From: Zingiber officinale | Lineage: Eukaryota; Streptophyta; Magnoliopsida; Zingiberales; Zingiberaceae | NCBI RefSeq assembly: GCF_018446385.1 | Contig: NC_055998.1 | Location: 75,882,744 to 75,946,743 of the forward strand | DNA: 64,000 bases | Direction: 5' to 3' | Part shown: positions 16,351-59,891 of the stretch, one piece after another | How positions within the stretch are numbered: position 1 is the first letter of the stretch | Layout: each line of letters begins with the position of its first letter | The notes under the pieces: generated by a model | Seen by the model: the letters and a program-made list of their open reading frames with translations, nothing else | The model's database searches: none | Told to the model about the DNA's origin: nothing | Translations under genes and position numbers: made by a program

Positions 16351-16362
16351 GCTCTGATACCA
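16351..16362 (-). promoter_or_regulatory. Copia-C primer-binding site (tRNA-Met)
   Basis: The minus strand reads TGGTATCAGAGC, complementary to the 3' end of initiator tRNA-Met, two bases inside the LTR. Confidence 0.9.
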
Positions 16363-26423: not shown

Positions 26424-26435
26424 GCTCTGATACCA
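26424..26435 (-). promoter_or_regulatory. Gypsy-A primer-binding site (tRNA-Met)
   Basis: Minus-strand TGGTATCAGAGC three bases inside the right LTR. Confidence 0.9.
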
Positions 26436-29565: not shown

Positions 29566-30960
29566 TTTGATTTTTTTTTTTTTTTTTTAAGGTTAATAAG
29601 AATTTAAAAGTAAAAAAAAAATAAGTTTAACATTAAAATGATTTTTAAAAAAAAGTTTAATTAAAACAATTTTTAAAAAATTTAACTTTAATAAAAAAAA
29701 ATTTAATTTAATTTTTAAAATAATTTTTAAGTTAAAAATTTAAGTTTAATTTTTTAAAATAATTTTTTAAAAATTTAAGTTTAATTTTTAAAATAATTTT
29801 TCAGTTAAAAATATAAGCTTAATTTCCAAAATATTTAACTTTAACTTTTAATTTTAGGAAAAATAAATTTAAGTTTAAATTTTTTAAGTTAAAAATTTAA
29901 GTTTAATTTTTAAAAAATTTAAGTTTAATAAAAAAAATTAAAGTTTAATTTTTAAAATAATTTTTAAGTTAAAAATTTAAGTTTACTTTTCAAAATATTT
30001 AAGTTTAAATTTTAAAATAATTTTTAGGAAAAAAATTTTAAGTTTTATTTTTTTAAAATAAAATTTTAAGTTAAAAAAAATTAAGTTTAAATTTTTAAAA
30101 TAAATTTTTAAGTTAAAAAAAAATTAAGTTTTAATTTTTAAAATAATTTTTAAGTTAAAATTTTAAGTTTTAATTTTTAAAATAAATTTTTAAATAAAAT
30201 TTTAAGTTTTAATTTGTAAAATAATTTTTAAGAAAAAAATTAAGTTTAATTTTTAAAATAATTTAAATTTAATTTTTAAAATAATTTTTAAGTTAAAAAG
30301 TTTAAGTTTAATTTTAAAATAATTTTTAAGTTAAAAATTTAAGTTTAATTTTAAATTTTAAAATAAATTTTTAAGTTAAAATTTTAAGTTTTAATTTTAA
30401 ATATTTTAAAAAATTTAAGTTAAATTTTAATAAATTTTAAGTAAAAAAGTTTAAGTTTTAATAATTTTTAAAATAATTTTTAAGTTAAAAAATTTAAGTT
30501 TAATTTTTAAAATAATTTTTAAGTTAAAATTTTAAGTTTAAATTTTAAAATAATTTTTAAGTTAAAACAATTTAAGTTTAATTTTTAAAACACTTTTTAA
30601 AATAAAAATAAAAATTTAATTTTTAAATTTTTGAAATAAATTTTTAAGTTAAAAAAATTTAAGTTTTAATTTAATTTAATTTTAATTTTCAATTAATTTA
30701 ATTTAATTTAAAAAATAAGTTTTTAAAAATTTAAGTTTAATTTTTAAAATAATTTTTAAGTTAAAAAAAATTAAGTTTAATTTTTAAAATAAATTTTTAA
30801 GTAAAAAATTTTTTAAAATAAATTTTTAAGTTAAAAAAAAATTAAGTTTTAATTTAACTTTTAGTTTAATTAAATTTAATTTAATTTAACTTTAATTTAA
30901 TTTTGATTTAATTTTAATTTAATTTAATTTTAATTTTAATTTTAATTTAATTTAATAGTT
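29566..30960. repeat. Low-complexity A/T tract of about 1.4 kb
   Basis: Almost pure A/T. A degenerate unit of about 35-40 bp ('TTTAAGTTTAATTTTTAAAA' followed by 'TAATTTTTAAGTTAAAAA') repeats dozens of times and is partly self-complementary. No coding potential. Confidence 0.9.
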
Positions 30961-31490
30961 AATGTCCTTAATTATCTCACCCGATATATGTTTTCAATCA
31001 GTTAATCCTATAATTTTGTGAGATGAATTAGGTTAATTTTAGGGCTTGTTTTTAACTTGTGTTAGATTCAGGTTTAGCTTTGGGTTCAACAAATAGGCGT
31101 TCTCTTGATAAACTTCTGGGCTATGGTGAGTCACTTGGACATCATTAAAGTAATCATATCTTCGAGGTTTTCCAAATAGTCTTATCCACTGGACTTAGTA
31201 CAAAACCTTGGTCAAACTGGTTATGATCCATAAAGGGTAGCTTTGGTCAGTTCCACTTAGCCAAATGCACCAGGTCGAAGTCATATCTTCCTAGACATGC
31301 ATAGACTAAGTTTCCTAACGTACTATCATCCAAAATTTCACCAATACCATTTTTCAAGTTAAACTTGAATCCTTTTTAACTAATCTTAATCACCCTGTCG
31401 GGTAGGTTGGTTAGGGTTACCCTGCCATGTAAGTTAGTTTTGGAGGTGCCAGCTATTCTGGAGCCTCCCCCTAAATTAATGACCATTAAT
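30961..31490 (-). other. Copia-A internal DNA, decayed, no intact gene
   Basis: Minus-strand scraps such as 'FVLSPVDKTIWKTSK' around 31185 look like former coding sequence but are broken quickly. I do not recognise the family. Confidence 0.35.
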
Positions 31491-33110
31491 TTAATTTTTA
31501 GTTCTTGGTTTATGTCTACTTCTTTTATAATTATATTTTACTTGGTGATAGTTTAAATTTTGTTGAGTTCTAATATGTTTAGATTTTAAATTTTTTTGTT
31601 TAGGTTTGTGTTCTGGTTTTTTATTTGGTTTATTTGACTTTACGTAATATATTTTATCTTTAGGAATATAATATTGGTTAGGTCCTATTTGCGTGGTTAA
31701 ACACACTTTCGGAACCCAGACTTTATTTGTTGGTTTATATTGGGTTATTAATGATTTAAAAGTTTTATTTGAGTTCGACTTATATCCGAGTCCGGTTTTA
31801 TTATAACATGCTTTTTGATTATTTAGAATTAAGTCTAAATTTTTTGATCTAGTAGTAAATTTTTCTAACATATTTTTTAAATTATTAATTTCTAATTTTA
31901 ATGATGAATTCTCCTCCTCAAGTGTTAGATCTTGAGTTGGTTTATTATTTACAACTTTTCCTTGAGGATTTGATTTTCCTCGAGGATCATTTTGTTTTCA
32001 TTTTCTAATTTAACTAATTTATTATTTAAGCATGAAATAATTTTTTAAAAAAATCAGTTTAAGGTTAGGAATACCTCTTTGGAACCTTCGAAAACGAGTA
32101 CGGACTCGTGGCTCGATTCGGGTTCGGACCCGTCTTCTGATTCTTCTTCCGACTCTGCTTCGAGGGTCGTCCCACGTCGCTTTGAGGGCCTTCTTTTTTG
32201 TCGGCTTCGGTTTGTCGATCTTCAATCTCGGGCACTCGTTCTTATAGTGGCCCTTCTTGTTGCATCCGAAACACGTCACACTCCTCGATTCAGTTGGAGA
32301 ATTGATCTTTTGAAGGTCCTTCTTGCTAAAGCTTCTTTTCCTCCTTGTGAACATTTTCCTTACCAGGTTCACCAGGTGTTCTTCATCTTCAGAGTTCTGG
32401 TCAGAATCTTCTTTCGGTTCAGACTTGTTCTTCTTTTCTTTTGAGGAACCTGCAAATAAAGCTACACCTTTCTCGACCTCGGCGTTAGTTTGCTCATGCA
32501 GTTCTAATTCACAAAAAAGCTCATCTAGTTTTAATTTTGATACATTTTTAGAGATCTTGTAGGCATCTACGATAGATGCCCGCAAGTTGTTGCGTGGAAG
32601 AGCGTTTAAGGCATACCTTATTAAGTCCCGGTTCTCCATTTGGTGCCCTATTGCGTGGAGTCCGTTGAGAATGTCTTTGATTTTTGCGTGGAGTTGGCTG
32701 GCCGTTTCTCCTTCTTGCATTTTTATGTTAAATATTCTATTTAAAAGCAAGTCTCATTTTGTTACCTTGGCGTCGCTCGTTCCTTCGTACAACTCGATCA
32801 GTTTGTCCCACAGCTTTTTAGCATTTTTATGTGGTCCAACCCGGTTCAGTTCTTCTCTAGTTAATCCGCACTGTAATGTGTTGATTGCCTTGTTCTCTGT
32901 TGATGCCTTCTTCTTTAAGTCTATTGTCCATTCTTCAGGATCCAGTAGATTCCCGGAGCTGTCTACTGGTATTTTGTAGGCTCTTGTGATGCTCAGCCAT
33001 TGATCGAAGTCTGTCTTTAGATATACTTCCATCCGCTTCTTCCAGTACGGGAAATCATCCCCGTTGAAAAGGGGAGGTCACACAGTGCTGAAGCCCTCGA
33101 TCTGCGACAT
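31491..33110 (-). pseudogene. Copia-A gag with CCHC zinc knuckle
   Basis: ATG at 33110 begins 'MSQIEGFSTV', and an in-frame TGA follows near 33080. 33032-32754 holds 'AINTLQCGLTREELNRVGPH' and 'AKKLWDKLIELYEGT', the Copia gag (UBN2-type) core. 32750-32022 continues with 'MLLNRIFNIKMQEGETASQL' and a CCHC knuckle ('CFGCNKKGHYKNEC', Cys160/Cys163/His168/Cys173 of that frame). 31871-31491 carries the 'TNKVWVPKVCL' tail. Three frames mean at least two shifts. Gag forms the particle and binds RNA. No pol follows it. Confidence 0.85.
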
Positions 33111-33366: not shown

Positions 33367-33378
33367 GCTCTGATACCA
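33367..33378 (-). promoter_or_regulatory. Copia-A primer-binding site (tRNA-Met)
   Basis: Minus-strand TGGTATCAGAGC, two bases inside the LTR that begins at 33381. Confidence 0.9.
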
Positions 33379-44902: not shown

Positions 44903-45020
44903 TTATAACTATTTTAATTAAAATAATTAGAATATTAAAATTACATTTAAAATATTATTATATCAAAATCCCTTTTAACTTAGTCAAAAACTATTAGTTA
45001 AAATTAATTGAAATTACATG
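44903..45020 (+). repeat. Left copy of the repeat flanking the viral insertion
   Basis: The 118-bp stretch 'TTATAACTATTTTAATTAAA'...'AATTGAAATTACATG' reappears diverged at 59731-59891 in the same orientation. The right copy has about 43 extra bases. Confidence 0.8.
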
Positions 45021-45099
45021 TTAAATAAACTTTTGTGCACAATGCACAATGTGATGATAAATAGTAGTTAGATTATTTTCTCACCATTTAATTATTATC

Positions 45100-45412
45100 T
45101 CGATTTATGCGTAAGATTTTGAATTAAAGATACCTTTCTTAGACTGTACAGATCTTATATGATTTTAGTTATTCCTGATACAATTACTGTTCACCTGTTG
45201 GTTACTAAGAAAATGATCGAGGAAAAAAACTAAGAAAAGATAGATAGAATATATTTGTTATTAAACTCAGTTTATCATTAAAAATAAGCATAGATCTTAT
45301 TTAGCAAAGAATTTACAGGGAATTACAACTAGAAAACTAAGATAGTTACATATTTGTACATAAAGATAACTTACAAAGAAAATTTACAAACACACTTAAG
45401 CACATACCATTA
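45100..45412 (-). repeat. Viral leader repeat, copy 1
   Basis: About 310 bp, diverged from the copy at 45655-45968 in the same orientation. Shared landmarks include 'ATTCCTGATACAATTACTGT' and 'GTTACATATTTGTACATAAA'. Both lie downstream of the presumed transcription start. Confidence 0.85.
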
Positions 45413-45654
45413 TTAAATTTTATGCTTCTTCTTAGTAGTTACGTTGGAAAAGTACAGTAAATAGTAATAGTAAACCGTAAAGTAAATAGTAGAAAGGAAA
45501 GTGTAGTAGTAGTGAATTGCAGCAGTAAAGTAAATAACCACAGTAATGTAATGATGTTGTAAATTTTTACTTTTTTTTATACTTACTCTGCTTTATATTC
45601 TTATTTGTTTTCAGGGAGCCTTACTTGTTCAGGATCACACAATTAACCATTGCC

Positions 45655-45968
45655 CTGGCTTATGCCTAAGATTTTGAGTTAAAGATGTCATTCTTACTTA
45701 GCTCGCACAGGTCTTATATAATTTTGGTTATTCCTGATACAATTACTGTTCACCTGTTGGTTACTAAGATAAAGACTGAGGAAAAGAACCAAGAAAAGAT
45801 AGACAAAACATCTTTGTTAATAAACTTAGTTTATCATTAAAACAAGCATAAATCTTATTTAGCGGAGAATTTTATAGGGAATTATAACCAGAAAACTGAG
45901 ATAGTTACATATTTGTACATAAAGATAACTTACAAAAAAAACTTATAAACAGACTTGAGCACACTTGA
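45655..45968 (-). repeat. Viral leader repeat, copy 2
   Basis: Partner of 45100-45412, about 556 bp away. This copy adjoins the promoter. The spacer 45413-45654 is AT-rich and unassigned. Confidence 0.85.
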
Positions 45969-46009
45969 AGAACACCGGGGGAATTTGGATAGTAGCGATG
46001 ACAGTGGGA

Positions 46010-46270
46010 GAAGTGGATACCCCAAAAGGAGAGGTTTGAGGGCCTTTTATAGGCAGAGGAGAGAGTGTTTACTTAGAGAAGAAGGAAAGCAGGGAGAGAA
46101 GAGAAGAGAGGGGTCGGGAAAGAGAAGGCTTGGTGAAGGACAGGTGGAAAGCAGTAAGAGATGGGAAAAAGGAGGGTCTGGCAAAAGGAGGCTTAGTGAG
46201 GGGCAGATGACTGCATTTTAGTTGGGCGGACATACTGTTGGAGGAATGGAAAAAAACGTCATGGATGACA
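46010..46270 (-). promoter_or_regulatory. Presumed viral pregenomic promoter
   Basis: Minus strand: a strong TATA box CTATAAAAGG at 46042-46052 with a start expected near 46015. A TGACGT (as-1/TGA-factor type) motif lies upstream at 46256-46261, followed by further TGA-type half sites near 46310-46330. The stretch between is pyrimidine-rich. Placement after the last ORF and before the leader fits a caulimovirid promoter. The plus-strand frame at 45955-46221 is an antisense shadow. Confidence 0.6.
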
Positions 46271-46659
46271 TTTTTAGTAGATGTTGCTATGGTGTTGTGT
46301 GAATGGAAAAGGACATCATAGATGATGTTTCATGGGCAATGTTGTCATTAAGTCTCCATTAGGTTATCTAGGTTATTGTCACTTGTAAGGTCCAGAGAGG
46401 GAGTTTATGAGCTTCCGGCTAAGTCTGGCTGGATACTTCTGTGGAGTGTTGTTCTGTATTCTCTAGCAGAGAGGATAGAGCTGGCTAGTTCCTTCTAGCA
46501 GTATCTTTCAGTTTTTCTTTGATAATGTTGAAGCAAAGTTGTGTGTTGTGTTTTAAAGGAGAAAGGGAATAATCTAGTACCCATATATTTTGGCCAGTAG
46601 ATTTTTTCAGTATAAGTTTCTTCTACTAGGAAGTAATTGTTTGGATCTGTCAAACTGTC
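46271..46659 (-). other. Viral intergenic region, no gene seen
   Basis: Non-coding DNA between the viroplasmin ORF end and the promoter; GC moderate, probably upstream promoter elements. Confidence 0.45.
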
Positions 46660-47956
46660 TCAAGCCCAATTAGTTCCTTGTACTGATGCTCTCCAGTGCT
46701 TTAGTTGATCTCCAAGAGCTTCCCAATTAAGCTCTGCGTCAGAAGGATAATCTTCAAGTTCCGTCTGAATACCTCCAACTTCATTGATATCAAGCTTAAC
46801 TAGATGTTTAGCTGGTTTAATATTAAGGTCAAGCCATTCAGGTGGAGAACTATCAAAAGTGCATACGACAAACATTTCTTCTTCTTCTAGGGCCAGAGAA
46901 ATAATAGTACTAAGCTTTTTAGGAAAATCTTTGACAGAATCTGGATCATGTATCCAAAATTTGTAAAGCAGTCCATAGTCCATTAGAAGAAAAGGAGTAA
47001 TAAGTCTTCCTTTGTAAGAGGTTGCTTTATACTTTTCATAGTCCAAGTTGACTTTACAGAAGGAATATAACAACTGACATGAACATCCGTATTTAGCAGA
47101 GTCTTCACGGGTTGGGTCAATTTTTTGACATTTGAGTTTTGAGCCCAATTCTGCTTCATAGACAATATTTATCCCAGGAGGAGGATTTTTATGGAAGTCC
47201 TTTAAGGCTTCACATAATTCAATAAAGGTTTGTAATATAGACTGTTCTGCTAAATTTCAAATGTAAGAGTTGATGTCCTCAGGTATAGTATTGGGTAGAC
47301 TCAATATATGAGTTGTGGATGCTCTTTGAGCGAAGGTTGTAGTAGCTTATTCTTTTAATTTAGCCAGTGTTAAATAGTTAGGTCGTTGTGGCTTCTTGTC
47401 TATTAATGTTGTAGAAGAGGAAGGAGACCCATGAGTTTCTTTAGTAATTTGTGCATATGTAGGAGTCTCTTCAGTTTGTGAGCTGGTTGGGTTTGTCATC
47501 ATGGTTGTTGTGTTTTAATAAAGTGCTAATAAAAAAATTAGCACCAAGTTGGGTTTTGGCAGCATTAAAAGCCTCTTCAAGTGAATAGTACCCTTTAAAG
47601 AAAGGATGTTCTAGACCTTGTATGGTCATATTTGTTTTTTCTCAAGTAGCATATACCCCAGCTTGTGGTCCAGAGAAGACTACATAACAAGAGAATTTCT
47701 TGTCTGCTGGCTTTTGTATGGTTGTTAAAAAAAAGTTTGTAAAAGCATTTATAATTGTTATCTTATGTCCAGAGCTACCAAGAATGATTGGAATGTGTCA
47801 AATGTTATTAATCAGACAGTGTTGTATGTGATATAATTTGTCTCTGAATATAGAGCGGAACTGATCTTCCTGTTGTATGAACTGTTGTAATTCTTGAGTT
47901 TCAAATCTTAATGTTTTAGTAGCAAATGATGTTCATACCTTCCTTGGTCTATCCAT
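46660..47956 (-). pseudogene. Viroplasmin-type (inclusion body/transactivator) protein of the endogenous virus
   Basis: A start 'MDRPRKV' at 47956 directly follows the pol end. At about 47720-47540 the viroplasmin domain (Cauli_VI) is clear: 'CYVVFSGPQAGVYAT' and 'GYYSLEEAFNAAKTQLGANF'. 47148-46660 is still open for 162 codons, ending '...HWRASVQGTNWA'. In related viruses this protein builds the inclusion bodies and aids translation of the polycistronic RNA. In-frame TGA stops lie after 'KV', in 'NNI*HI' and in 'YAT*EK', and shifts separate the parts, so it is not functional. Confidence 0.72.
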
Positions 47957-48093
47957 TACCTGAAAAAATTAGTAAAATAAATGAGATAAAGTATCAGCTA
48001 AAAATTGTTAATTCCCTTTATTTGTTCCCAGTGAATGCGTAAACCTTTATTAATAATGGTATCTATGAATTTTGACAATCTCTTAGTACTTAA

Positions 48094-49500
48094 TCATTTT
48101 CTTAATCTTTTAGTTTGTTGACTATACTTGACTATAGATTCACAGTCTGTTATAATAGTAATTTCTTGCTTATTGCAAATGAATAGTCGGAAGGCTTCTA
48201 GATAATAAATAACTGCTAATATTTCAAAATCTAGTGAAGTTAAATGTCCTTTTTCTTGAAATTTCCCAAACGCATACCTGCATAAGGTTTCTGTAGGTTT
48301 AGGATCATATTTGGAAGTTTTTCTAAATAAAATGTTTCCCCATCCTGTTTCACATCCATCTGTTTCAATAACTAAGTAGTCAGAATCAAGTGGGAGTGTT
48401 AACATGGGAATTATTTTTACTAACTGTTTAATTTGTTGTACAAGTATTATATCTTGTTGATTAATTTTTTTTTCGGTTAAGGAGGTCTTATTGTATAAGG
48501 GATTGTTAATTTTTCCTATATATCTTAAATAAGGTCTTGCATAATTTAGGAGTCCTAAAAAAGTTCTTAGAGTTTTAGTATCTTCCATTTTATTTGAAAA
48601 AGTAAGGATTTTAGCAGAGATATAAGGTCGAAGTGTTATTTGTCCTTGACCTATCTCGGCTCCTAGGAAAATCAATATGAGTAGTTGCTATTGTCATTTT
48701 CTTTCGAGAAATAATCAGATCATGTTCTCAAATAGGTCAAAAATAATATGAAGATGAGCATAATGTTCTTGTTTAATTTTAGAGAAAACTAGAATATCAT
48801 CTATATATACACAAGTGAAGAAAGAAACATCTCAAAAAATGTCATCCATTTTCCTTTGGAATATTTGAGGGGCTACCTTAAGGCCAAAAGGCATAACAAG
48901 TCATTCAAAATATCCCTCGGGGCAGAAAAAGGTTGTACATTCAATGGACTCAGGATGCATTTTAACTTGCCAAAATCCTGATTTCGTATCAATTTTAGAG
49001 TACCATTTTGAGTTTTGGATTTTATTTAAGAGTTGGTCTTTGTCAGGGATTTTATAATCATCTTCTTGACAATTATCATTAAGTCTTTTGTAGTCAAATA
49101 TCATTCTATATTGGCCACATTTTTGTTCTAATCCTTTATTAACTATGAAAGCTGGACTTCAGTGCCAAGATGTGTACCTTTGAATGACTCCTAAAGTTAA
49201 GAGTTGATTAATGTGCATTTTACATTCTTCAGTTTCCCAATTTATATATTTTAAGTCTTGAGCATTAATTGTATGGTCTGGATTAATTATTGATAGTTTG
49301 TAGTAGACTTTATCTCGGTCCCAATATTTAGTAGGATTGTCTCCAATAATTTCTAGTTTTTCTAATCTAGAAATAAGGGAGTCTAAATCGGGTTTATAGG
49401 TGTTTATTATTTGAAGTAACTGTTGTGGGAGTATGAGATCAGGTGGGATCCAGGTGTCATCAGTTATAGGGCTTGACCAGCTAAGTGAGGCTAGTTTTCC
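48094..49500 (-). pseudogene. Viral reverse transcriptase and RNase H
   Basis: RT: 'YKRLNDNCQEDDYKIPDK' and 'YSKIDTKSGFWQVKMHPES' (49104-48901), and the catalytic YIDD box at 48796-48807, which is still intact. RNase H: 48675-48094 opens for 193 codons with 'FLGLLNYARPYLRYIGKINN', 'IETDGCETGWGN' and 'IITDCES'. The wording is closest to badna/tungro-type enzymes. Stops interrupt RT at about 49171 and at two more conserved Trp sites near 48891 and 48835. Copying would be impossible from this copy. Confidence 0.9.
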
Positions 49501-49885
49501 TGATCTTGTTGGTCAGAAAAAACTATGGCACAGGTTTGGCTATTAGGTTGTGGTTGGTTACTGACTGTCTACATGCATTTTTAGGAGAACATTCAAAAGA
49601 TGATGTGTTGTCAGAAGGTATGATTTCTATGTGGGGTTTGGTGGTTAAGGGATGAACAATGGAGGGATAGTCTGATACTATTGAAGATATAGTGGGTGAG
49701 GAAAAGAAAAGAGCATAATCCTTGATTAGAAGAAAAGTTCTATCTGGTGCTACAAGAAAATTTAAGCCTAAGATTAAGTGAATATTAAGATGTAATAACG
49801 GTTTAATCTATAGTTTAGAGAGTGGGAGTGGTGTGTTATATTTAACATAGTTGTCATAAAACCTCATATGGGTGTTAGTGACAAA

Positions 49886-50254
49886 TTATGTGCAAGCTAA
49901 TTGTTGGCCATCAAATTGTGTACTTAGTAATGGTTGTGATGCGATTTTTATAAAAGTTTTTGGCAAGACTAAAAGAAGTGTATTTTCATCTATGGTCGAG
50001 TTGGTGACTCCACTATCTAGAAAGACATGTAGTGTAAACTCATGGCCATGGATATTTGCCAACCATTTGACTCTAATGTCTAGAGTTTTTCCTGTATTAT
50101 AGACACTAGAGGCTTTTATAAAGACCAGATCTCTATCTATCATATCTACTAATGTAAGTTGTAAGTCTTTGCCTTTATCAAGAGTAGCCTGAGAAGAAAG
50201 TGGAGGAAGGTTTACTTGAATTTGTTTATCTAGGGTCTCTAGTTCTGTTTCCAA
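49886..50254 (-). pseudogene. Viral aspartic protease
   Basis: A 122-codon frame with the active-site motif 'LHVFLDSGVTNS' (Asp80, codon at 50017-50015). This retropepsin-type enzyme would cut the viral polyprotein. The link to RT at 49500-49885 is broken. Confidence 0.75.
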
Positions 50255-50640
50255 TTTTTTAATACAAATTTCTAATACAGAAACTCTGGTTTCTAATAAA
50301 AAATTTTGAGTACCTCCCTTAGAGAACGGGCTTATGGGTATTGTGATAGAGAACAGTTGTTGAAGACAAAGATTACAGACTTGTTTCTTACATAACTTAC
50401 ATGTACCTCTTTTATCTAAAGATGGATAATAACTACAAAAGAAACAAGGAATGTTATCAGTTTTTGTTTTGAGTATCCACTTATGTGGACAATTAAGTTT
50501 TTCTGTAGTCTTAGTACTGAGTTGTTAACCATTATATTTGTATCTAGAAATTCATCCCATAATTCTTCTAGATTGTCTAGCATATCATAGGGTATATAAT
50601 TTTGGCTTTCAGAATGTAGGTTATACTGCTGGTATGAAGG

Positions 50641-51158
50641 TTACAAGAAGGAGTTTACAAGACTATAGTCATAAGAAGGAATAACTTCTTCCACATCATC
50701 TACAGAAACAATAGAGTAGATGGAGGATGTGTTAGAAATATCTGATTGTACTTCTACTAAATCAAGATTTGCACAGGTAACTAGTTTGGATTCTCTGGTA
50801 TATAAATTCTTTTTATTTAGGCAGACAGAAGATAAATGTCTTGGTTCATTACAGGAGAAACATGTGATGGTATTAATATACATCTTCTTTGGTTTGAACT
50901 TTCGCACATGTTTTTATTTATTTAGATAGGGTTTTTTTCTCTACTTTTTCTAACATAGTAGGTCTTTTTGGGGTTTATTGCCTTGGGCCTTGATATCGAT
51001 CTTCTAGGTATCTTGATGAATGATTTAGTCTTGGTCTAGGTTGGGTGAGACCATATTATTAAGGGGTATATATTTGGTTACAAAATCCATATTGTTGATT
51101 TTTTTAGTTACTTTTGTATGTGGATATAGGTACATTTTTCTTTAAGTATGGAAATAAT
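50641..51158 (-). pseudogene. Viral coat protein, C-terminal part with zinc knuckle
   Basis: The frame 50907-50641 has a CX2CX4HX4C knuckle ('CFSCNEPRHLSSVC', 50862-50821) followed by an acidic Ser-rich tail, as at the end of caulimovirid coat proteins. The upstream part is cut off by Copia-D at 51158/51159. A stop or shift separates 50908-51158 from the knuckle. 50255-50640 joins to the protease and is broken. Confidence 0.75.
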
Positions 51159-52769
51159 TGTTAGGATCTCTTCGTACGGCTAGAGAGGGGGGTGTGAATA
51201 GCCGACCCCAATTGCTCGCGTTTCTTTCTACAAACTAGGGTTAGCGCAGCGGAAACTAAATGCAGAAAGAAGACAGGAGAAGAAATCAAACCTTTACGCA
51301 AGGATGTAACGAGGTTCGGAGATGAAACTCCTACTCCTCGGCGTGTCCGTAAGGTGGACGAAGCCTATCAATCCGTCGGTGGATGAGTCCCCGGAAAACC
51401 GGCTAAATCAAACTCCTTGTGGGTGGAGAAACCTCGCCACAATCACTTGCAACAGCAAGCTAAGAGTACAAGAGAATAGCAAGAACAAAATACAACAGGA
51501 ATGTAAACACAGTAGCTTGCCTTCTCGTCGACTGGGGTCCCGGATGAAGTAGCAACTTCACGGACAGATGCAACAAGCAACTCAGCAGCAGCTGATCCAG
51601 TCGTGGAATGAAGCTCACACGAAGCTTCGACAAGGAGGAGCTCAACAAAGCTCAAGCACAACAAGACTTTGCAACTCAAGGAAGAAGAAGAAGAATCACG
51701 AAGATGCCTCGTCCTTTATACCGCGAAGAAGAAGCAATGAAGAAACTGGCTGGTGCGTAAGCGGCTAGAACTCGATGATCGGCACCGATCGGGGAAGAAC
51801 TCTTCGCCTGTTCTTCTGATCGGTCCATGGACCGATCGAACATCCCGATCGGTCCACGCAGGATGGAACCTTCCGATCGGTCCGCAGACCGAGCTTCTTC
51901 TCTGCTGTTCGATCTCCTCGATCGGTCTCGATCGATAACCATCGATATATCGATCGGCCTGATCGGTCACCACCGATCGGATGACCCATGTATCGTCGAC
52001 GATCCAAACTTCTCACCCTAAACCTAAGGCATCCGGTCAACCTTGACTGTTGGTACATCATGCCTAGCATCCGGTCACTCCCTGCACTCCTCGCTAAGTG
52101 TCCGGTCAATCCTTTGACCCACTTAGATTTTTCCACCGGATGTCCGATCATCCTGATCCATCTGGATTTTCCTCTTCGTGCCAAGTATCCTATCACTCCT
52201 TGACCTACTTGGACTTTCCAACACCGTAAGTCCGATCATCCCCGATCCATCTGGATTTTCCTTTTCGTGCCAAGTATCCGAACATCCCAGACTTTCTCAT
52301 CGCTTCACTCACTGGACTTTCCAACCGCCTAACATCCAAGGACTTTTTTGCACTTCACATTTTCTTTTAATTTTATCCCCTTTCTTCACTTTTCTTTCCA
52401 ATATAAATATTCCTCTTACAGCTTCACTCACGACTCCTCACTTTTGCAAGTCTCCATACTTGGACTTTTCAAGTGCCAAGCTCTTTTTCCGTGACAAGTC
52501 TCCATACTTGGACTTTTTTCCGAATCAGGTCAACCAGGTCAACCTTGACCTACGGTTGCACCAATAATCTCCCAAACATCTATTCTTGTCCCATATCAAG
52601 AATACAACTCTTCCACGAGTGTCAAACATCAAAATACAACTCAACTAGGTCAACCTTAACCTAAGGTTGTACCAACAATCTTCCTAAGTCAAACATCAAA
52701 ATACAACTCGAGTCAGGTCAACTTGAGTCAGGTCAACCAGGTCAACCTTGACCTAAGGTTGCACCAACA
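51159..52769 (-). repeat. Copia-D 3' LTR (1611 bp)
   Basis: Matches 56140-57677 with several indels (for example at 51195-51215). A dense cluster of GATCGGTC/GACCGATC palindromes lies at 51775-51985, followed by 'GTCCGGTCA'/'CTTGGACTTT' repeats. Confidence 0.92.
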
Positions 52770-52784
52770 ATCTCCCCCTTTTTG

Positions 52785-54606
52785 ATGTTTGACAAAACTC
52801 ATAATCAAGTTAGGTTAACCCGATAACCTAACTTAGGTTTTCCAACCATCTTCCAATGTCCAATGTTCTTTCCTTGAATATTCTCTGAACATTCTCCCCT
52901 TAGGTTAACCCGATAACCTAACTTGGGTTCTCCAATAATTCTCCCCCTTTTTGACACACATCAAAAAGAATTTCAATGTTCTTTTCTTGAACATTCCTTG
53001 ACATTCTTTCCCTAGCTTAGGTTAACCCGATAACCTAACTTGGGTTCTCCAATAATTCTCCAATGAACACTCTCCCCTTTTTGACACACATCAAAAAGGA
53101 AAAAAAGGGTATCAAGGTCAAGAGTTTCTTCCTAATGAAAGTCCCATACATTTCATTGAAACTCTTAATTTCCCCCTTGATACTAAACTCAACAATCAGC
53201 TTAGTGATAATCCCATATCACTAATCCTCAAAAGTCTTAAGGAGTAAAAACTCCCCCTTGACAATTAGGTAAAACTCCCCCTAAAGGTTAACTTCCCCTT
53301 TGACCATTGCACCAACAATGTCTTTGTGAGTTCCAAACCTTTAGAAATCTACAAAACCCAACTTCCAGCTGAAATTTCAGACCAACAGCTGAAAATCGGT
53401 CACCAGATCGATCAGGCTCCCTCTGGATCGGTCACAGTGACCGATCCAGGCTCCCCTGGACCGATCAGAAACCCTTCGGATCGGTCCACAAACCTGATCA
53501 AGGTCTGATAAGTTCTGATTTCTCTCCACGAAATTCAGAAACTCCTAGAAAATTCCAGAAAATTCAAAAATTGTGAAATTTTGAGGATACATTCCTCATA
53601 ACATATACTATCATGGAAAAATAGTTTTCTATGAAAATAACTTCCATTTTTCAATCTTGATACAAAGTTCAAAAACTTTGAAATAGTTCAAGTTTAACTC
53701 AACTTTGTATCACAATGTTCAATGATGAATGCTATCACTAGGAAAGCTTCATCAAGGTTTTTCAAATCAATTTTAAAATGCTTTTAAAACCTTTAATTTG
53801 GGACCACAATCTTTGGACTATATGTACATGACTTGTACATAAGCTTTCCCTATGATCCCCAATTAGAATTAGGCTCATCTAGGTACAAGAACTATGCACC
53901 TTGATCCTAACTCACAATCCTAATATCTCACACACATCTAAGATGTATCAAACACATCCAAGTCAATTTTGATGTGAGATATGGGTTAAGGTATCTTAGA
54001 CTAAGGTCTCATGCATTTTCTAAACACAAATTTGATCTCAATATCAAAATGTGTTTTTCATCCTTAAATCAATTCAATTGATTATTAATGCAAGAGATGA
54101 TGACATGGCATAAGATGGTATCATAAATGAAAACATGTGCCAAAGTCATGATGTCATGGCATAAAGTTTGAAACTTAAATAAACATGACATAAAAACTAG
54201 CCTAAGCATTATCATGACATTTCAAATGATAATAAAACTAAACATGATGTCATGACATGTGAGGGAAAACAATCATGACAAGATTTAGCATAAATAAATA
54301 TACCTAGATTACCTATCTAAGTATCCTTAACCACTTGACTAACTTCAAATTTAATCCTAGATTGCCCCAAAATGCCAAAATCCTAATTTTGACACTTCTT
54401 GAACTCTAGATTTTCCCAAATTGTGCCAATTAAGATTAAAAATGAAATTTCCAATCTTTAGGCACATTTAACTCTTCAAAGGAGTAAATGATAATTCCAT
54501 TTCATTTTCAAAAGTTCTCAAAACCTTGAAAATGCTCCTTGAGTGTCAATTTCCTCAAAGTTGGGTTAACTACCCTTCTAATCGGAGTTGACACTCTCTA
54601 ACCCAT
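52785..54606 (-). other. Copia-D 3' internal non-coding region
   Basis: No gene. Includes three copies of 'AGGTTAACCCGATAACCTAA' (52812-53040) and another GATCGGTC palindrome cluster at 53397-53490. The position is where pol would be in a complete element. Confidence 0.7.
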
Positions 54607-56078
54607 CTATGGGGTAGAGAAGATGCTCCTAGGAACCCAATACCTATTAGAGCTCATTGGGTTCACTAAATATTCACTAGGGATAACTTCCCTAGCAACC
54701 CTCCTAATGACCCTCTTAGGCTTTAAAGCCTTGGTCATTTGGGACTCATCAAGATCAACTCTAGGGGTGACTCCCCTTGTGACCTTGGTGTTGGTCTTCC
54801 TAGCCCTAGGTTTTGTTCCATAATCGAATGGAACATTATGATAAGTGGGCTTGACCACTTGAGACTTAGGTTTGTGACCCAAACCTTTCTTGTTCTTGGA
54901 CATTGGTTTTTGACCCTTAAACCCTAGAGATGACTTCTCCAAGTTCTTAAGAGCCTTTTCCAAAGTATCAAGTCTTGACCTCAAGACTTGATTCTCCTTC
55001 TCTAATACCTCAATTTTTAATTTTTCATTTTTCTTTGAGGTATTCCTAGGCATATGTCTAGATGATTTGGGATTTCTATCTAGGTTTCCCTTAACCTTAG
55101 ATGAGTTAATCCTAGGGTTGGCTTTCCTAGTGTTATCCTTATCTAGACTAACATCTTTGGCACCTAAGCACATATATTGGTTCCTAGAATTATCATGCTT
55201 ATCATTCTTGACAATTGCAATAAAACTACTAGCATGAGTCTTATTATTATTGCAAGAGTGTGCCTTAAATGTTACCTTAGGGTTTGCCTTAGCTCCCCCT
55301 ATCGACGTGCTCGGTCTCTTGTCCTTGTGAGATTGCCTCCCCCTCGGACATTGACTCCGATAATGTCCCCTTCGCTTGCATTGGAAGCACACCACGTGCT
55401 CCTTGCCCTTGCGTGTTGGGACTCCGACTTCCTTGATCTTTGGCGCGGTGGAGTCTTTCTAACCCTCTTTGGACACTTACTCTTGTAGTGCCCAAACTTC
55501 CTACACTCAAAACACATTATGTGTAATTTGCTTGAAATCACAGTGTTTGAGTTACCTAGGGTTGTGGATGTAGATGAGCTTTCTTCTTCATCCCTTCCGG
55601 AGGTAGATGCCTCTTCTTGCTCCGAACTTGAACAAGAGGAACTCTCCTCCTCTTCTTCCTTGGATGTTGAGTAGCCCTCAACTCCCAATTCGCTCCCTCC
55701 ATGATGTGAGCTACTTGGCTCACTAGGCTTCTCTTCATGGCTTGAAGTGGAGCTCTCCTCATGGTACTTGGCCAAGTTATCCCACAACTCCTTGGCATTG
55801 TTGTATTTACCTATTTTACACAAAACACTAGTAGGTAATGAAAATTCAATTGTTTTAGTTACCTCATTGTTGATCGTGGATTAGTGGATTTGTTCCTTCG
55901 TCCACTTGTTCTTCTCTAGAGGCTCTCCTTCTTTATCCATTGGAGGAGTAAACCCTTCTTGTACACAAAACCAGTTCCACATATTAGTCCTAAGAAAATA
56001 CATCATCCTTACCTTCCAATATGCGAAGTTGTCGTTGTAGAAGGGTGGAATGGTGATGTCTTCTCCAAATTGATCCAT
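54607..56078 (-). pseudogene. Copia-D gag with two CCHC zinc knuckles
   Basis: The likely start is ATG at 56078 ('MDQFGEDITIPPFYND'), then 'NFAYWKVRMMYFLRTN' (56038-55990), a Ser/Glu-rich middle (55823-55560), knuckle 1 'CFECRKFGHYKSKC' (about 55512-55471), knuckle 2 'CFQCKRRGHYRSQC' (55389-55348) and a basic tail that ends 'SSNRYWVPRSIF'. The two knuckles lie in different frames, so there is a frameshift near 55400-55450; another stop lies near 55880. Gag packages element RNA. Confidence 0.85.
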
Positions 56079-56125
56079 CTCTAGCTTGTGCTCCCACGGG
56101 TGTGAATCCGATGAAGAGCGGCCTT

Positions 56126-56137
56126 GCTCTGATACCA
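56126..56137 (-). promoter_or_regulatory. Copia-D primer-binding site (tRNA-Met)
   Basis: Minus-strand TGGTATCAGAGC, two bases inside the right LTR. Confidence 0.9.
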
Positions 56138-56139
56138 CT

Positions 56140-57677
56140 TGTTAGGATCTCTTCGTACGGCTAGAGAGGGGGGTGTGCGTTTCTTTCTACAAACTAGGGT
56201 TAGCGCAGCGGAAACTAAATGCAGAAAGAAGACAGGAGAAGAAATCAAACCTTTACGCAAGGATGTAACGAGGTTCGGAGATGAAACTCCTACTCCTCGG
56301 CGTGTCCGTAAGGTGGACGAAGCCTATCAATCCGTCGGTGGATGAGTCCCCGGAAAACCGGCTAAATCAAACTCCTTGTGGGTGGAGAAACCTCGCCACA
56401 ATCACTTGCAACAGCAAGCTAAGAGTACAAGAGAATAGCAAGAACAAAATACAACAGAATGTAAACACAGTAGCTTGCCTTCTCGTCGATCGGGTCCCGG
56501 ATGAAGTAGCAACTTCACGGACACAAGCAACTCAGCATCGTGGAATGAAGCTCACGCGAAGCTTCGACAAGGAGGAGCTCAACAAAGCTCAAGCACTTTG
56601 CAACTCGAAGGAAGAAGAAGAAGAATCACGTAGATGCCTCTCCTTTATACCGCGAAGAACGAAGAAACTATGCCGCTATGCTGTAGGACTCGATCGTGAT
56701 CCATTCGATCGGTCTGCCGACCGTCGGGAAGAATATTCGATCGGTCCATGGATCGAAACATCGATCGGTGACTGCGATCGATCGGTCCGTGGACCGATCG
56801 CTTCTCGCCGATCGACGGCCCCGACCGATCGATCCGATCCGATCGGTCACCGATCGATGACCCATGTATCATGGATCCGTCTCGCCGATCCAAACTTCTC
56901 ACCTAAACCTAAGGCTTCCACACCAACATCCGGTCAACCTTGACTGGTACATCATGCCTAGCATCCGGTCCCCCTTGACCTGCTAGCACTCCTCGCTAAG
57001 TGTCCGGTCAATTTGACCCACTTAGACCTTTTCCACACCGGATGTCCGATCATCCCGATCCATCTGGATTTTCCTCTTCGTGCCAAGTATCCGATCAACC
57101 CCTTGACCTACTTGGACTTTCCAATGTCCGATCATCCCCGATCCATCTGGATTTTCCTTGCCCGCCACTCACGGGACACCGCCTAGGGGCCTTCACCAGG
57201 ACTTTCCAACTTCATACATCAAGGACTCTCTTCACTCACTTAACATCCCGCTTAGGACTTTCCTGCTTCACTCACTGACTTTCCAACTAACATCAAGGAC
57301 TTTCCTCGTGCCAAGCTCCCCGCTTGGACTTCTCCGTCAAGTCTCCGCTTGATGCAAGTCTCCATACTTGGACTTAGCCTCCTGCTTGGACTTTTCCGTT
57401 GCCAAGTCTCCATACTTGGACTTTTTCCCGAATCAGGTCAACCAGGTCAACCTTGACCTACGGTTGCACCAATAATCTCCCAAACATCTATTCTTATCCC
57501 ATATCAAGAATACAACTCTTCCACGAGTGTCAAACATCAAAATACAACTCAACTAGGTCAACCTTAACCTAAGGTTGTACCAACAATCTTCCTAAGTCAA
57601 ACATCAAAATACAACTCGAGTCAGGTCAACTCGAGTCAGGTCAACCAGGTCAACCTTGACCTAAGGTTGCACCAACA
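56140..57677 (-). repeat. Copia-D 5' LTR (1538 bp)
   Basis: Partner of 51159-52769. It has its own version of the GATCGGTC palindrome cluster at 56690-56860, differing in unit number and order from the 3' LTR copy. Confidence 0.92.
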
Positions 57678-58518
57678 ATAATGTGTTGGATTCTTACTCC
57701 AATGTTATCGTATTGTGGTGCTACATTCATATCTGTCCATGTCTTATGTATTTCCTTTCCTAAGTCTCCTGAAAGCTTGCTAAAGAGTCTTTCTCCTAAT
57801 TCTGAGTTACAATAGTTTCCTGAGACTGCTGTTAATGCAAAGATGTCATTACAAAAAAGCTTAATCCAGTTCTAGCTAAAGAGTTGTAATTGTTTTAAGT
57901 CTCTCGTAGCTTCTCTTTGTCTTATATTTAATCCAGTATTAGCATCTCTGATAGTAAATAACTTATGAATTGTATAGCAAAAATTGAGTATGTTATTTCC
58001 TTATGAGATCATCCTGGCTACTTCCTCAAGATATGTAGTTTTATAAGCTTCCCATGTTGCCTTGGCAACATCGCCTGGGTAATTTCCCCCTACTTTTATC
58101 ATGACTTCACCTGTTTCTATGTCTAGTTCATGTCTGGCTTGATAATCTTTTTTTTTTTACAGAGACTATCCACTGTTCTAAGTAGGTATCATAAAGTTGT
58201 GGATCCTCATATTCTCTAATATTTAATAAAACTGATTTTTTGCCAAAATAAGTAATTTCAGGTGATCTCCTTTTTCCTATTGTTCTCAACAAAGAATTAT
58301 TATTAGTATATGAGGTAATCTTTGTTCTTGGAGAATGTCCTTCTCCATAATCCATAGTTCTTATAGAGCTTTCAGGGTATCTTACTTATAATGATTGTGG
58401 TCTGAAATTACTAGTGCCACTAGATTCAGCTGGATTCATTAGGTTTATTGTTGAAAAGCAATCTTGCTTTTTAGCAATTATATTATGGTCCTTATCAAAT
58501 ATAACATCCAGTCATGCT
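57678..58518 (-). pseudogene. Viral coat protein N-terminal/core region and MP-CP linker
   Basis: 57690-58130 on the minus strand shows the caulimovirid coat core: pieces such as 'YPGDVAKATWEAYKTTYLEE', 'LNIRQREATRDLKQLQLF' and 'GDLGKEIHKTWTDMNVAP' are readable between stops. 58355-58128 encodes 'SPEITYFGKKSVLLNIREYE' and belongs to the linker between movement and coat proteins. Copia-D separates this from the zinc-knuckle end. Stops include TAA and TAG. Confidence 0.7.
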
Positions 58519-59621
58519 CTAATTTATGGTGTAAAAGGTCAAAAGTTTTAATTCTTTTAAATCTTCTTTAGTGAAATAAGTAACTATTTCAAATGGGACG
58601 TAAACATATTCATTTAAGTCATCATAAAATAAATAGTTATTCTCAACATTGTTGTTTGTATGAATTTTCAGTATGCTATATTCTATGTTCATTAAATTAA
58701 TATTAGTTTGATTTTCTTCATAATCTTCTTCTTGTGATGTTGAGGGTTTGTAATTATGAAATCTTACTATGGAGCTACCGTGTCTATCTTTATAAATAAT
58801 GGATTTTGTTGGTTGTAAAGTTTGTGTTTTAGCGCTTAGCTCCAAATTAAGAATCCAATCTAATCCGACAAGTAAAGTAGATGAAAAGTCCTTAGGTTTG
58901 AGGAAATAAATACCTTTTGTAGTAAGGGTTTCAATGACATTAGTAATTTTAACTTTAAAATTATTGTTAATATTTGTCATTATTTTTTCTAGAAAGATTA
59001 TGTCTATTTGGATATTATGTCTTCGAAAGTCTCCATACCCTCTGGCTTGTACTGAAATTTTAATATGTTCTATAAAGTCTAGGATTGTCATATTGAAGTT
59101 TGGACAGAAATATGTAATTCCTAAATTGCTATTCATATCTACTTCAATGAATCCAATAACTACCTTATCATTGTCAGAAAATCTTGAGTCATAAATGACT
59201 AAAAATACTTTGGCTCCTATGATTTTTTAGTAAGTCTTCTTAGGCCAAACACTATTAGTCCTAAATGTATGTAGCGATGTTTTCTTTACAAAAGTGTTTG
59301 TGCCGATTCTTCAGTCATGAGTGTAAATCTTTCTTCACCTCCATCTGGTAGATGAAGTAGTTATGTCTTATGATGTCTATAGAGTGATGTAGAGAAGGAT
59401 AATAGTCCTTGATTATATATTCTCCTTGGATTTAGGGTATTTAATTATTCGTTAGAAAATGTATCTAAATTATGTTCAATGTCTATAAGTTCTTCTAATC
59501 GATAAATAGCAATATTTGTTGATGATCTCTTGGGAATCACAGATAAGTTTCTATTTGGTTGTCTTAAAGCTTGTGATAATCCAGAAAAATTTTCAATTTG
59601 CGTCTTTGTTCGTAGATCCAT
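58519..59621 (-). pseudogene. Viral movement protein (30K superfamily), N-terminal ORF of the virus
   Basis: An ATG at 59621 opens the first ORF ('MDLRTKTQIENFSG'). The open part 59136-58519 contains 'LGITYFCPNFNMTILDFIEH' and 'ISVQARGYGDFRRHNIQIDI', matching the pattern of caulimovirid movement proteins of the badnavirus type ('...SIQTRGYE...'). Such proteins form tubules through plasmodesmata for cell-to-cell spread. The stretch between 59137 and 59560 holds stops and shifts. The Asn/Ile-rich composition reflects the AT bias of the insert. Confidence 0.75.
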
Positions 59622-59730
59622 TTTGAATGAGGTCTTGGATCTTGTATGTAAGAAACTTATAAGTAGTAAGTTGTTGGATAATTATTTTTACTAAAGATAA
59701 TTTATTAAGGTCTTTATTTATACTTTCTAG

Positions 59731-59891
59731 TTATAACTATTTTGATTAAAATAATTAAATGTTAAAATTACTTTTAAAATATTTTTATATCAAAATCTCT
59801 TTTAACATAGTAAAAATTGTTAGTTAAAATTGATCCAACATAGTTGTAACAATTTTCATCAAATGTGAAGCAATTTGATTGAAATTACATG
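59731..59891 (+). repeat. Right copy of the repeat flanking the viral insertion
   Basis: Partner of 44903-45020. It contains an extra segment 'CAACATAGTTGTAACAATTT' plus about 23 more bases near its right end. Confidence 0.8.

Follow-up and report, generated by a model that had tools for sequence, protein, structure and literature searches.

A decayed endogenous caulimovirid of ginger joins a badnavirus-like polyprotein to a separate viroplasmin reading frame

Gene order and domain content of the ginger locus

We describe a viral locus in a 64,000-nucleotide stretch of the ginger (Zingiber officinale) genome, hereafter the window (NC_055998.1:75882744-75946743, on our contig C13), within a 3.09-Gb assembly of 211 contigs that includes both haplotypes. 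The locus (45006..59730, minus strand) is a decayed endogenous caulimovirid of ginger that has lost its 5' end within a small open reading frame (ORF) and carries a nested long terminal repeat (LTR) element, its limits being set by a tblastn map, by the end of the relatives' homology at 59730 and by a flanking direct repeat. Along the minus strand the order is small ORF, movement protein (MP), coat protein (CP), zinc/cysteine-rich region (Zn/Cys), protease, reverse transcriptase and RNase H (RT-RH), and viroplasmin/transactivator (TAV), which together cover 59730-46606 in tblastn with proteins of other natural copies. An earlier note made from the letters of this DNA had read MP, coat, protease, RT/RNase H and then a viroplasmin ORF on one strand, and the tblastn map and the domains bear this out. 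What remains new is a distinct endogenous lineage, present in many copies though of a kind already known; two of its features stand out, the occurrence of TAV on either side of the badnavirus split and a frame change between protease and RT. We judge it very probable that the account as a whole is the best explanation, that is, a decayed badnavirus-side caulimovirid with a TAV, plus the expression and history proposed below.

Comparison proteins were taken from better-kept copies in the ginger genome: P0001 (a 515-aa RT-RH), P0002 (protease), P0003 (TAV), P0127 (coat-zinc), P0126 (MP) and P0129 (small ORF). Relatives matched the window at 71-87% identity (matches of at least 40 residues), except for one coat stretch at 52%, and the viral frames of the window are interrupted by stops and frame changes. 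Upstream of the polyprotein stands the C-terminal part of the small ORF (59596..59730, minus), 76% identical to residues 88-133 of P0129, for which Pfam gave no match. The MP region (30K MP; 58519..59550, minus) is broken, with tblastn matches at 59550-58807 and, for its C-terminal part, at 58803-58287; the window piece 58522-59226 matched a profile of the N-terminal polyprotein regions of 8 relatives at E=4.4e-48 (best of 200 shuffles, E=0.22), and PF01107 scored E=1.5e-4 on P0126 (21.8 bits, below its 23-bit cutoff). The first part of the coat protein (57677..58283, minus) was found by tblastn and by PF22909 (E=2e-8 at 57653-57871; E=6.5e-27 on P0127), and the second, past the nested element (50928..51158, minus), matched residues 200-276 of P0127 at 52% in tblastn.

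The Zn/Cys-rich region follows at 51003-50132 (minus, tblastn). It holds a zinc knuckle motif, C-X2-C-X4-H-X4-C, visible in the ORF text at 50821..50862 (minus), where the window piece had no Pfam match and PF00098 was matched on P0127, and a second cysteine motif, C-X2-C-X11-C-X2-C-X4-C-X2-C, located by regular expression at 50366..50446 (minus) and present in 16 of the 17 relative polyproteins checked; this second motif we take to be typical of badnaviruses. The aspartic protease (A3B; 49565..50173, minus) is 82% identical to P0002, itself matched by PF21024 (Peptidase_A3B) at E=1.7e-10. For reverse transcriptase and RNase H (48004..49506, minus), 83% identical to P0001, the window pieces themselves matched RVT_1 (E=5.9e-11) and RT_RNaseH (E=4.6e-8). 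The traits of a caulimovirid, namely MP, coat domain, A3-type protease, RT and RNase H, thereby stand together on one strand, and no integrase was matched in the window pieces or in the relatives' frames scanned with Pfam.

A viroplasmin reading frame follows RNase H

The TAV ORF of the window is broken and its 3' end approximate (46350..47959, minus): tblastn with P0003 matched 47959-47513 at 87% and 47484-46606 at 84%, and the C-terminal rest was drawn from the ORF text and a DNA match. Its Cauli_VI domain (47570..47686, minus) was mapped through tblastn from residues 92-130 of P0003, where PF01693 scores E=2.6e-8 (34.4 bits against a curated cutoff of 21). The full ORF has 536 aa, and many ginger copies keep intact TAV frames. 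Among the first 30 loci fetched by an RNase H query, the window included, 29 had TAV within the 3' flank of RNase H on the same strand, and when 30 of 150 RNase H places were paired by coordinates with 28 of 95 TAV places, the gap was 144-147 bp in 18 of the 30. One well-kept copy (L003) has the TAV ATG 17 nt past the RT-RH stop (RT-RH frame to 2205, TAV match from 2226), and a third ginger lineage, 73% identical, has TAV 3' of RNase H in 4 of 4 loci at 41-58% identity. The copies show a viral unit of about 8.1 kb that held one ORF for MP-CP-Zn-Cys-protease, a reading frame for RT-RNase H and, after a further 17 nt, a TAV ORF of 536 aa. Between the main lineage and a second one (C8), uncorrected pN/pS was 0.24 for TAV, 0.28 for the protease and 0.12 for RT, values quoted uncorrected with synonymous sites saturated (pS 0.65-0.75) and a corrected dN/dS for TAV not obtainable; these genes were thus still working when the two lineages parted.

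Several results weigh against this interpretation. None of the stop-free viroplasmin, protease and MP pieces of the window alone matched its family in Pfam, so that a viroplasmin domain at 47540-47720 and a 30K MP, both expected in the earlier note, were recovered through the Cauli_VI domain of P0003 and through the MP profile, with the window's own TAV and MP pieces staying below Pfam thresholds. Ginger TAV searched against 5.8 billion proteins (4,001 candidates scored) gave two matches only, a ginger protein and a second one whose identity covers 52% of the query, and the case for kinship with other TAVs therefore depends on the domain together with the first, N-terminal third of the protein; a structure model of TAV was uninformative (pLDDT 28.9).

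The domain itself allows a different origin for this ORF, as Pfam describes PF01693 as the N-terminal domain of RNase H1, and the ORF might then be a captured host hybrid-binding domain with no kinship to viral TAV. The fixed position 3' of RT-RH in 29 of 30 loci, the length of 536 aa and the similarity to the tails of caulimovirid proteins from grasses and a metagenome, which extends past the domain (see below), all speak against such a capture, which we regard as highly improbable. The host-domain candidate was set aside on the position and on the similarity to caulimovirid tails. A piece of the viral TAV ORF is also fused to other coding sequence in a predicted Z. officinale gene model (P0125, LOC121992915).

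Copies in the ginger genome and the viral unit

Counting both haplotypes, the RNase H query found at least 150 matching places, a lower bound given that 150 of 21,233 first-look candidates were scored and all 150 matched; the MP query gave at least 150 matches (150 of 2,089 candidates scored) and the TAV query at least 95 (93 of 2,358 candidates scored). Same-strand neighbours lie 8,090 bp (contig C16), 8,092 bp (C8) and 8,212 bp (C5) apart, and we take the head-to-tail unit to be about 8.1 kb because of this spacing. Uninterrupted single-gene frames occur in some copies, with MP-bearing frames of up to 1226 aa. Viral copies also form a dense cluster in both orientations at C4:140.93-141.01 Mb, with at least nine RNase H matches.

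Relatives carry a tRNA-Met primer site, TGGTATCAGAGC, for example 5' of the first ORF in L031; it is absent from the viral part of the window copy, a copy truncated at its 5' end, and the site at 56126 belongs to the nested element. The virus would have made one pregenomic RNA primed by tRNA-Met, and its TAV, by analogy with caulimoviruses, may have served ribosome reinitiation on several ORFs and the formation of viroplasms. Integration was presumably passive, because no integrase was seen.

Phylogenetic placement of the ginger lineage

The RT-RH tree has 55 rows, the window being represented by its RNase H alone. Reference rows came from a protein database (the best 120 of 603 and the best 120 of 954 matches), with 50 of 214 different proteins in the tree; CaMV and Ty3 were the named outgroups, beside one distant Tanacetum row, and the set stands without RTBV, a named Yendovirus, Soymovirus, Petuvirus or Florendovirus. 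No relatives were found among the viral contigs scanned. Support values are given as pairs, with starred nodes so called. Window RNase H and the rows of the ginger main and sister groups unite (100/100, starred) and then join P0130 and a group containing Cajanus (8 rows, 100/97, starred), all within a 17-row group with Taraxacum, Olea, Ancistrocladus and P0132 (93/89, not starred). Oryza, Triticum, Lolium and nine further rows form one clade (12 rows, 100/100, starred), and Dioscorea nummularia-associated virus (DNUaV, genus Dioscovirus), three neighbour rows and 14 badnavirus-like rows form another (18 rows, 100/99, starred), in which the badnavirus-like rows are a clade of their own with the ginger group outside it (100/100, starred). 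By this tree the ginger lineage is on the badnavirus side of the family, outside Badnavirus, and together with the cysteine motif and the TAV ORF this agrees with the combination of a badnavirus-like polyprotein and a separate TAV ORF put forward in the earlier note.

The papers cited here by PMC number were consulted in part, and statements drawn from them hold for those parts. DNUaV has a genome of 8139 bp, with MP-CP-Zn-AP-RT-RH in ORF3 and a TAV domain in ORF4 (PMC6135502), a layout that matches the ginger one in a genome close to the ginger unit of about 8.1 kb and so invites the reading that the locus is Dioscovirus, or a very near relative, endogenised in ginger. RT-RH identity between the two is 50%, though, DNUaV groups with Badnavirus, and an approximately unbiased (AU) test that forced the 8 ginger-group rows together with DNUaV and its three neighbours rejected that union (p-AU 1.2e-5); we consider this identity very improbable. 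Dioscovirus identity was rejected by that test. Placing the ginger rows with the whole 18-row clade was not rejected (p-AU 0.30). The novelty supposed in the earlier note holds in so far as the lineage falls outside both Badnavirus and Dioscovirus in the RT-RH tree, and fails as to layout, which DNUaV already has.

Among the rows compared, the closest to ginger RT-RH have 60-64% identity and include dicots. The nearest relatives of the ginger lineage are endogenous sequences with dicots among their sources, probably of the informal Yendovirus/Orendovirus group. It is rather probable that the lineage belongs to the informal endogenous Yendovirus, or to a union of Yendovirus and Orendovirus, in which case the genus-level lineage was known and the gene content alone is new. 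Yendovirus lies on the badnavirus/tungrovirus side and is common in monocots and dicots (PMC5766536), it falls together with Orendovirus and a Vitis group into one operational taxonomic unit at 62% identity (PMC13308828), and the identities of the nearest rows fit the same assignment. Against it, the tree did not join the ginger group to the 12-row clade of Oryza, Triticum and Lolium, nor did the AU test reject such a union (p-AU 0.083), and named Yendovirus stood outside the comparison. The idea of an undescribed or endogenous-only genus in monocots thus survives in part: the ginger lineage is distinct, nearby endogenous-only groups had already been named (Yendovirus and Orendovirus; PMC5766536, PMC9794742, PMC13308828), and the restriction to monocots falls with the Cajanus, Taraxacum, Olea and Ancistrocladus rows in its clade.

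A frame change between protease and reverse transcriptase

The RT of the main and C8 lineages is encoded in a frame displaced by -1 from that of the protease, and the change falls at a conserved GGAAAAC-TAG; the window copy reads GGAAAACTAG at this point (49491..49500, minus). Fourteen loci gave the -1 relation in 11, a single frame in 2 (of the 73% lineage) and an unmatched protease in 1, and a second set of 17 loci gave -1 in all 17, with 13-28 nt between the two stops and GGAAAAC before TAG in 16 (GGAAAAA in the remaining one). With its 3' context the motif occurs 128 times in the genome and the reversed pattern 0 times. Protease and RT share a single frame in the third lineage. We also note GGAAAACTAG at the protease/RT junction of two further copies (L003 658-682, L071 871-889).

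Sixteen of 17 loci have at least 294 nt of RT frame before the first in-frame ATG, and the remaining one has 78 nt; the ATG-free stretch measures 294 nt in 9 of 10 main-lineage loci (the tenth has the 78 nt) and 408-423 nt in the other 7. Over RT-frame codons 6-98, L003 against L071 gave a pN/pS of 0.18 in this frame and of 1.00 and 1.60 in the other two; in those copies this part of the RT frame was therefore translated with no AUG ahead of it. Among the ways of making RT we favour, from these sequence patterns, -1 frameshifting over non-AUG initiation, and either of these over a founder lesion or splicing, and we give frameshifting about an even chance. RT-RNase H would then be a minority product in two of the three ginger lineages, made by -1 frameshifting at GGAAAAC-UAG or from a non-AUG start. 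To our knowledge, -1 frameshifting of the gag-pro/pol type after the protease is known in no member of the Caulimoviridae.

A number of points count against frameshifting. GGAAAAC is not a canonical X-XXY-YYZ heptamer, and no RNA structure downstream of the frame change exceeded shuffles (z 0.15 and 0.06, pseudoknots being outside the model); several of the 14 loci had been selected for a 515-aa frame and at least 7 of the 17 for showing the -1 pattern, and the three ginger lineages (main, C8 and 73%) are identity bins, with C8 outside the tree. The non-canonical motif and the lack of a stable structure after it would also suit a frame change that arose as a lesion in one founder and was amplified without serving RT production, as would the many main-lineage copies that are near-identical (TAV 96-100% among the matches listed), which is what one amplified founder predicts. 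Such a lesion would, however, have to be common to two lineages near synonymous saturation (pS 0.65-0.75) and to coexist with purifying selection that acts on the protease, on RT (93 codons in the first part of its frame included) and on TAV, and we hold it to be unlikely. Precedent for a non-AUG start exists in RTBV, whose ORF I begins with AUU (PMC3542737), and frameshifting has been excluded experimentally in CaMV (PMC5902531). If the favoured -1 frameshifting is true, RT would be produced here by a route new to the Caulimoviridae, as far as the literature consulted in part shows.

Boundaries, nested element and insertion history

At the 5' end, 30 of the 38 other places that match it stop at 59729-59730 and the other 8 earlier, and only a place on contig C14 continues. 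A direct repeat flanks the insertion, with a left copy of 103 bp (44903..45005) that is identical at 93 of 103 positions (90%) to 59731-59831 and a right copy (59731..59831) that abuts the viral 5' end at a junction also found on C14, where it is about 48 bp longer. The left end, placed at 45021 in the earlier note, therefore lies nearer 45006, the flanking repeat ending at 45005, while the locus itself is delimited much as described there. The 103-bp repeat may have arisen as an unusually long duplication of the target, or it may already have stood at the integration site before the virus arrived. The C14 place is taken as an allele of the window locus because more than 2 kb of right flank is in common.

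The nested LTR retrotransposon (51173..57676, minus; 6.5 kb) was recognised from LTR pairs, from the empty site in the C14 allele and from its tRNA-Met-like primer binding site at 56126-56137, and its limits were fixed because the C14 coat gene reads continuously across the empty site. Its copia-type gag traces (DUF4219 and copia gag) are weak matches below their cutoffs, and no pol ORF was noticed in the ORF list. A leader/intergenic tandem duplication (45134-45963, copies at 45134..45404 and 45693..45963, by self-comparison and, for the second copy, a DNA match to relatives) has a period of 559 bp, and in alignments with relatives the two copies fall on a single region. Both this duplication and the nested element had been proposed in the earlier note and proved real, as did the length of about 7.6 kb left without them: the viral sequence measures 8221 bp minus the nested element and 7662 bp minus one 559-bp unit as well.

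Window and C14 allele differ by 4-5% substitutions in three viral alignments and by 2.5% in the right flank. The viral copy would be older than the divergence of the two ginger haplotypes, and the copia-like element would have landed later in the coat gene of one haplotype only, because the C14 allele has the virus without the element. Elsewhere in the window, exact TGGTATCAGAGC sites at 16351-16362, 26424-26435 and 33367-33378 (minus) are perhaps primer sites of other LTR elements, and the GC content of 30001-32000 is very low (18.6%).

TAV-like tails in grass and metagenome proteins

BLAST of ginger TAV against the collected proteins found TAV-like tails in P0132, in one protein from Triticum and in several from Oryza, with single comparisons at 6e-19 (P0132), 1e-13 (P0019) and 1e-10 (P0215). 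Five tails scored 78, 62, 51, 51 and 32 bits, where 100 shuffles reached at most 26 bits for four of them and 22 for the fifth. Cauli_VI scored 49.9 bits in P0132 and 18.0, 17.6 and 14.1 bits, all below the cutoff of 21, in two longer Oryza proteins and the Triticum protein, and Pfam did not list it for P0016. The grass proteins are gene models, with RNase H shortened in two Oryza models, and their genomic order is inferred. P0019 (577-850), P0215 (831-1098) and P0046 (496-764), from Triticum and Oryza and named hypothetical or Ty3-gypsy, have the tail after RT or RNase H, and P0132, a 1304-aa metagenome protein, combines RT-RNase H, a weak aspartic protease, TAV and dUTPase in an order odd for a caulimovirid.

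Tentatively, and with somewhat less than even confidence, we suggest that TAV is old in the whole badnavirus-side clade (ginger, orendovirus-like grass elements and Dioscovirus) and was lost in badnaviruses, so that it would not have evolved only with split ORFs, and that two ginger lineages add a -1 frameshifted RT-RNase H. The open-licence literature, mostly consulted in part, yielded no account of a TAV from either Orendovirus or Yendovirus; a 2018 review gives the TAV homologue of Orendovirus as not recognisable by protein BLAST (PMC5902531), and neither viroplasmin nor transactivator occurs in the main texts of PMC5766536, PMC9794742, PMC13308828 and PMC11359110 as consulted. The ancestry of TAV in the badnavirus-side half of the family becomes testable with these sequences.

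Comparison with known systems

Badnavirus has the polyprotein order and the second cysteine motif of the ginger lineage, and differs from it in forming a separate 14-row clade and in being without TAV (PMC5902531). The absence of viroplasmin from badnaviruses had been stated in the earlier note and agrees with that review; the same note counted petuviruses among the genera that have it, and here the review contradicts it, listing Petuvirus without a recognisable TAV. Sweet potato pakakuy virus, a badnavirus, likewise has an ORF3 divided between two frames, which overlap briefly ahead of the first AUG, but the division lies before the protease and is +1, whereas the ginger split comes after the protease and is -1 (PMC7145414).

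Dioscovirus is like the ginger lineage in its small ORFs and in a polyprotein followed by a separate Cauli_VI/TAV ORF within about 8.1 kb (PMC6135502, ORF4 compared by description only), and a frame change between protease and RT goes unmentioned in the parts of that source consulted. DNUaV likewise carries the second cysteine motif. The orendovirus-like grass elements of Oryza, Triticum and Lolium, whose identity with Orendovirus is inferred from the host, also have a badnavirus-side polyprotein, and differ in their own 12-row clade and in an RT-RH identity of 52-57% to ginger. Yendovirus, informal, known as endogenous only and compared by description only, resembles the ginger lineage in its position on the badnavirus/tungrovirus side and its presence in monocots and dicots (PMC5766536). 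The 2018 review sets genera that combine TAV with separate ORFs apart from genera that have an MP-CP-RT polyprotein and no TAV (PMC5902531), and the ginger lineage and the grass TAV-like tails stand beside Dioscovirus as further exceptions to that division.

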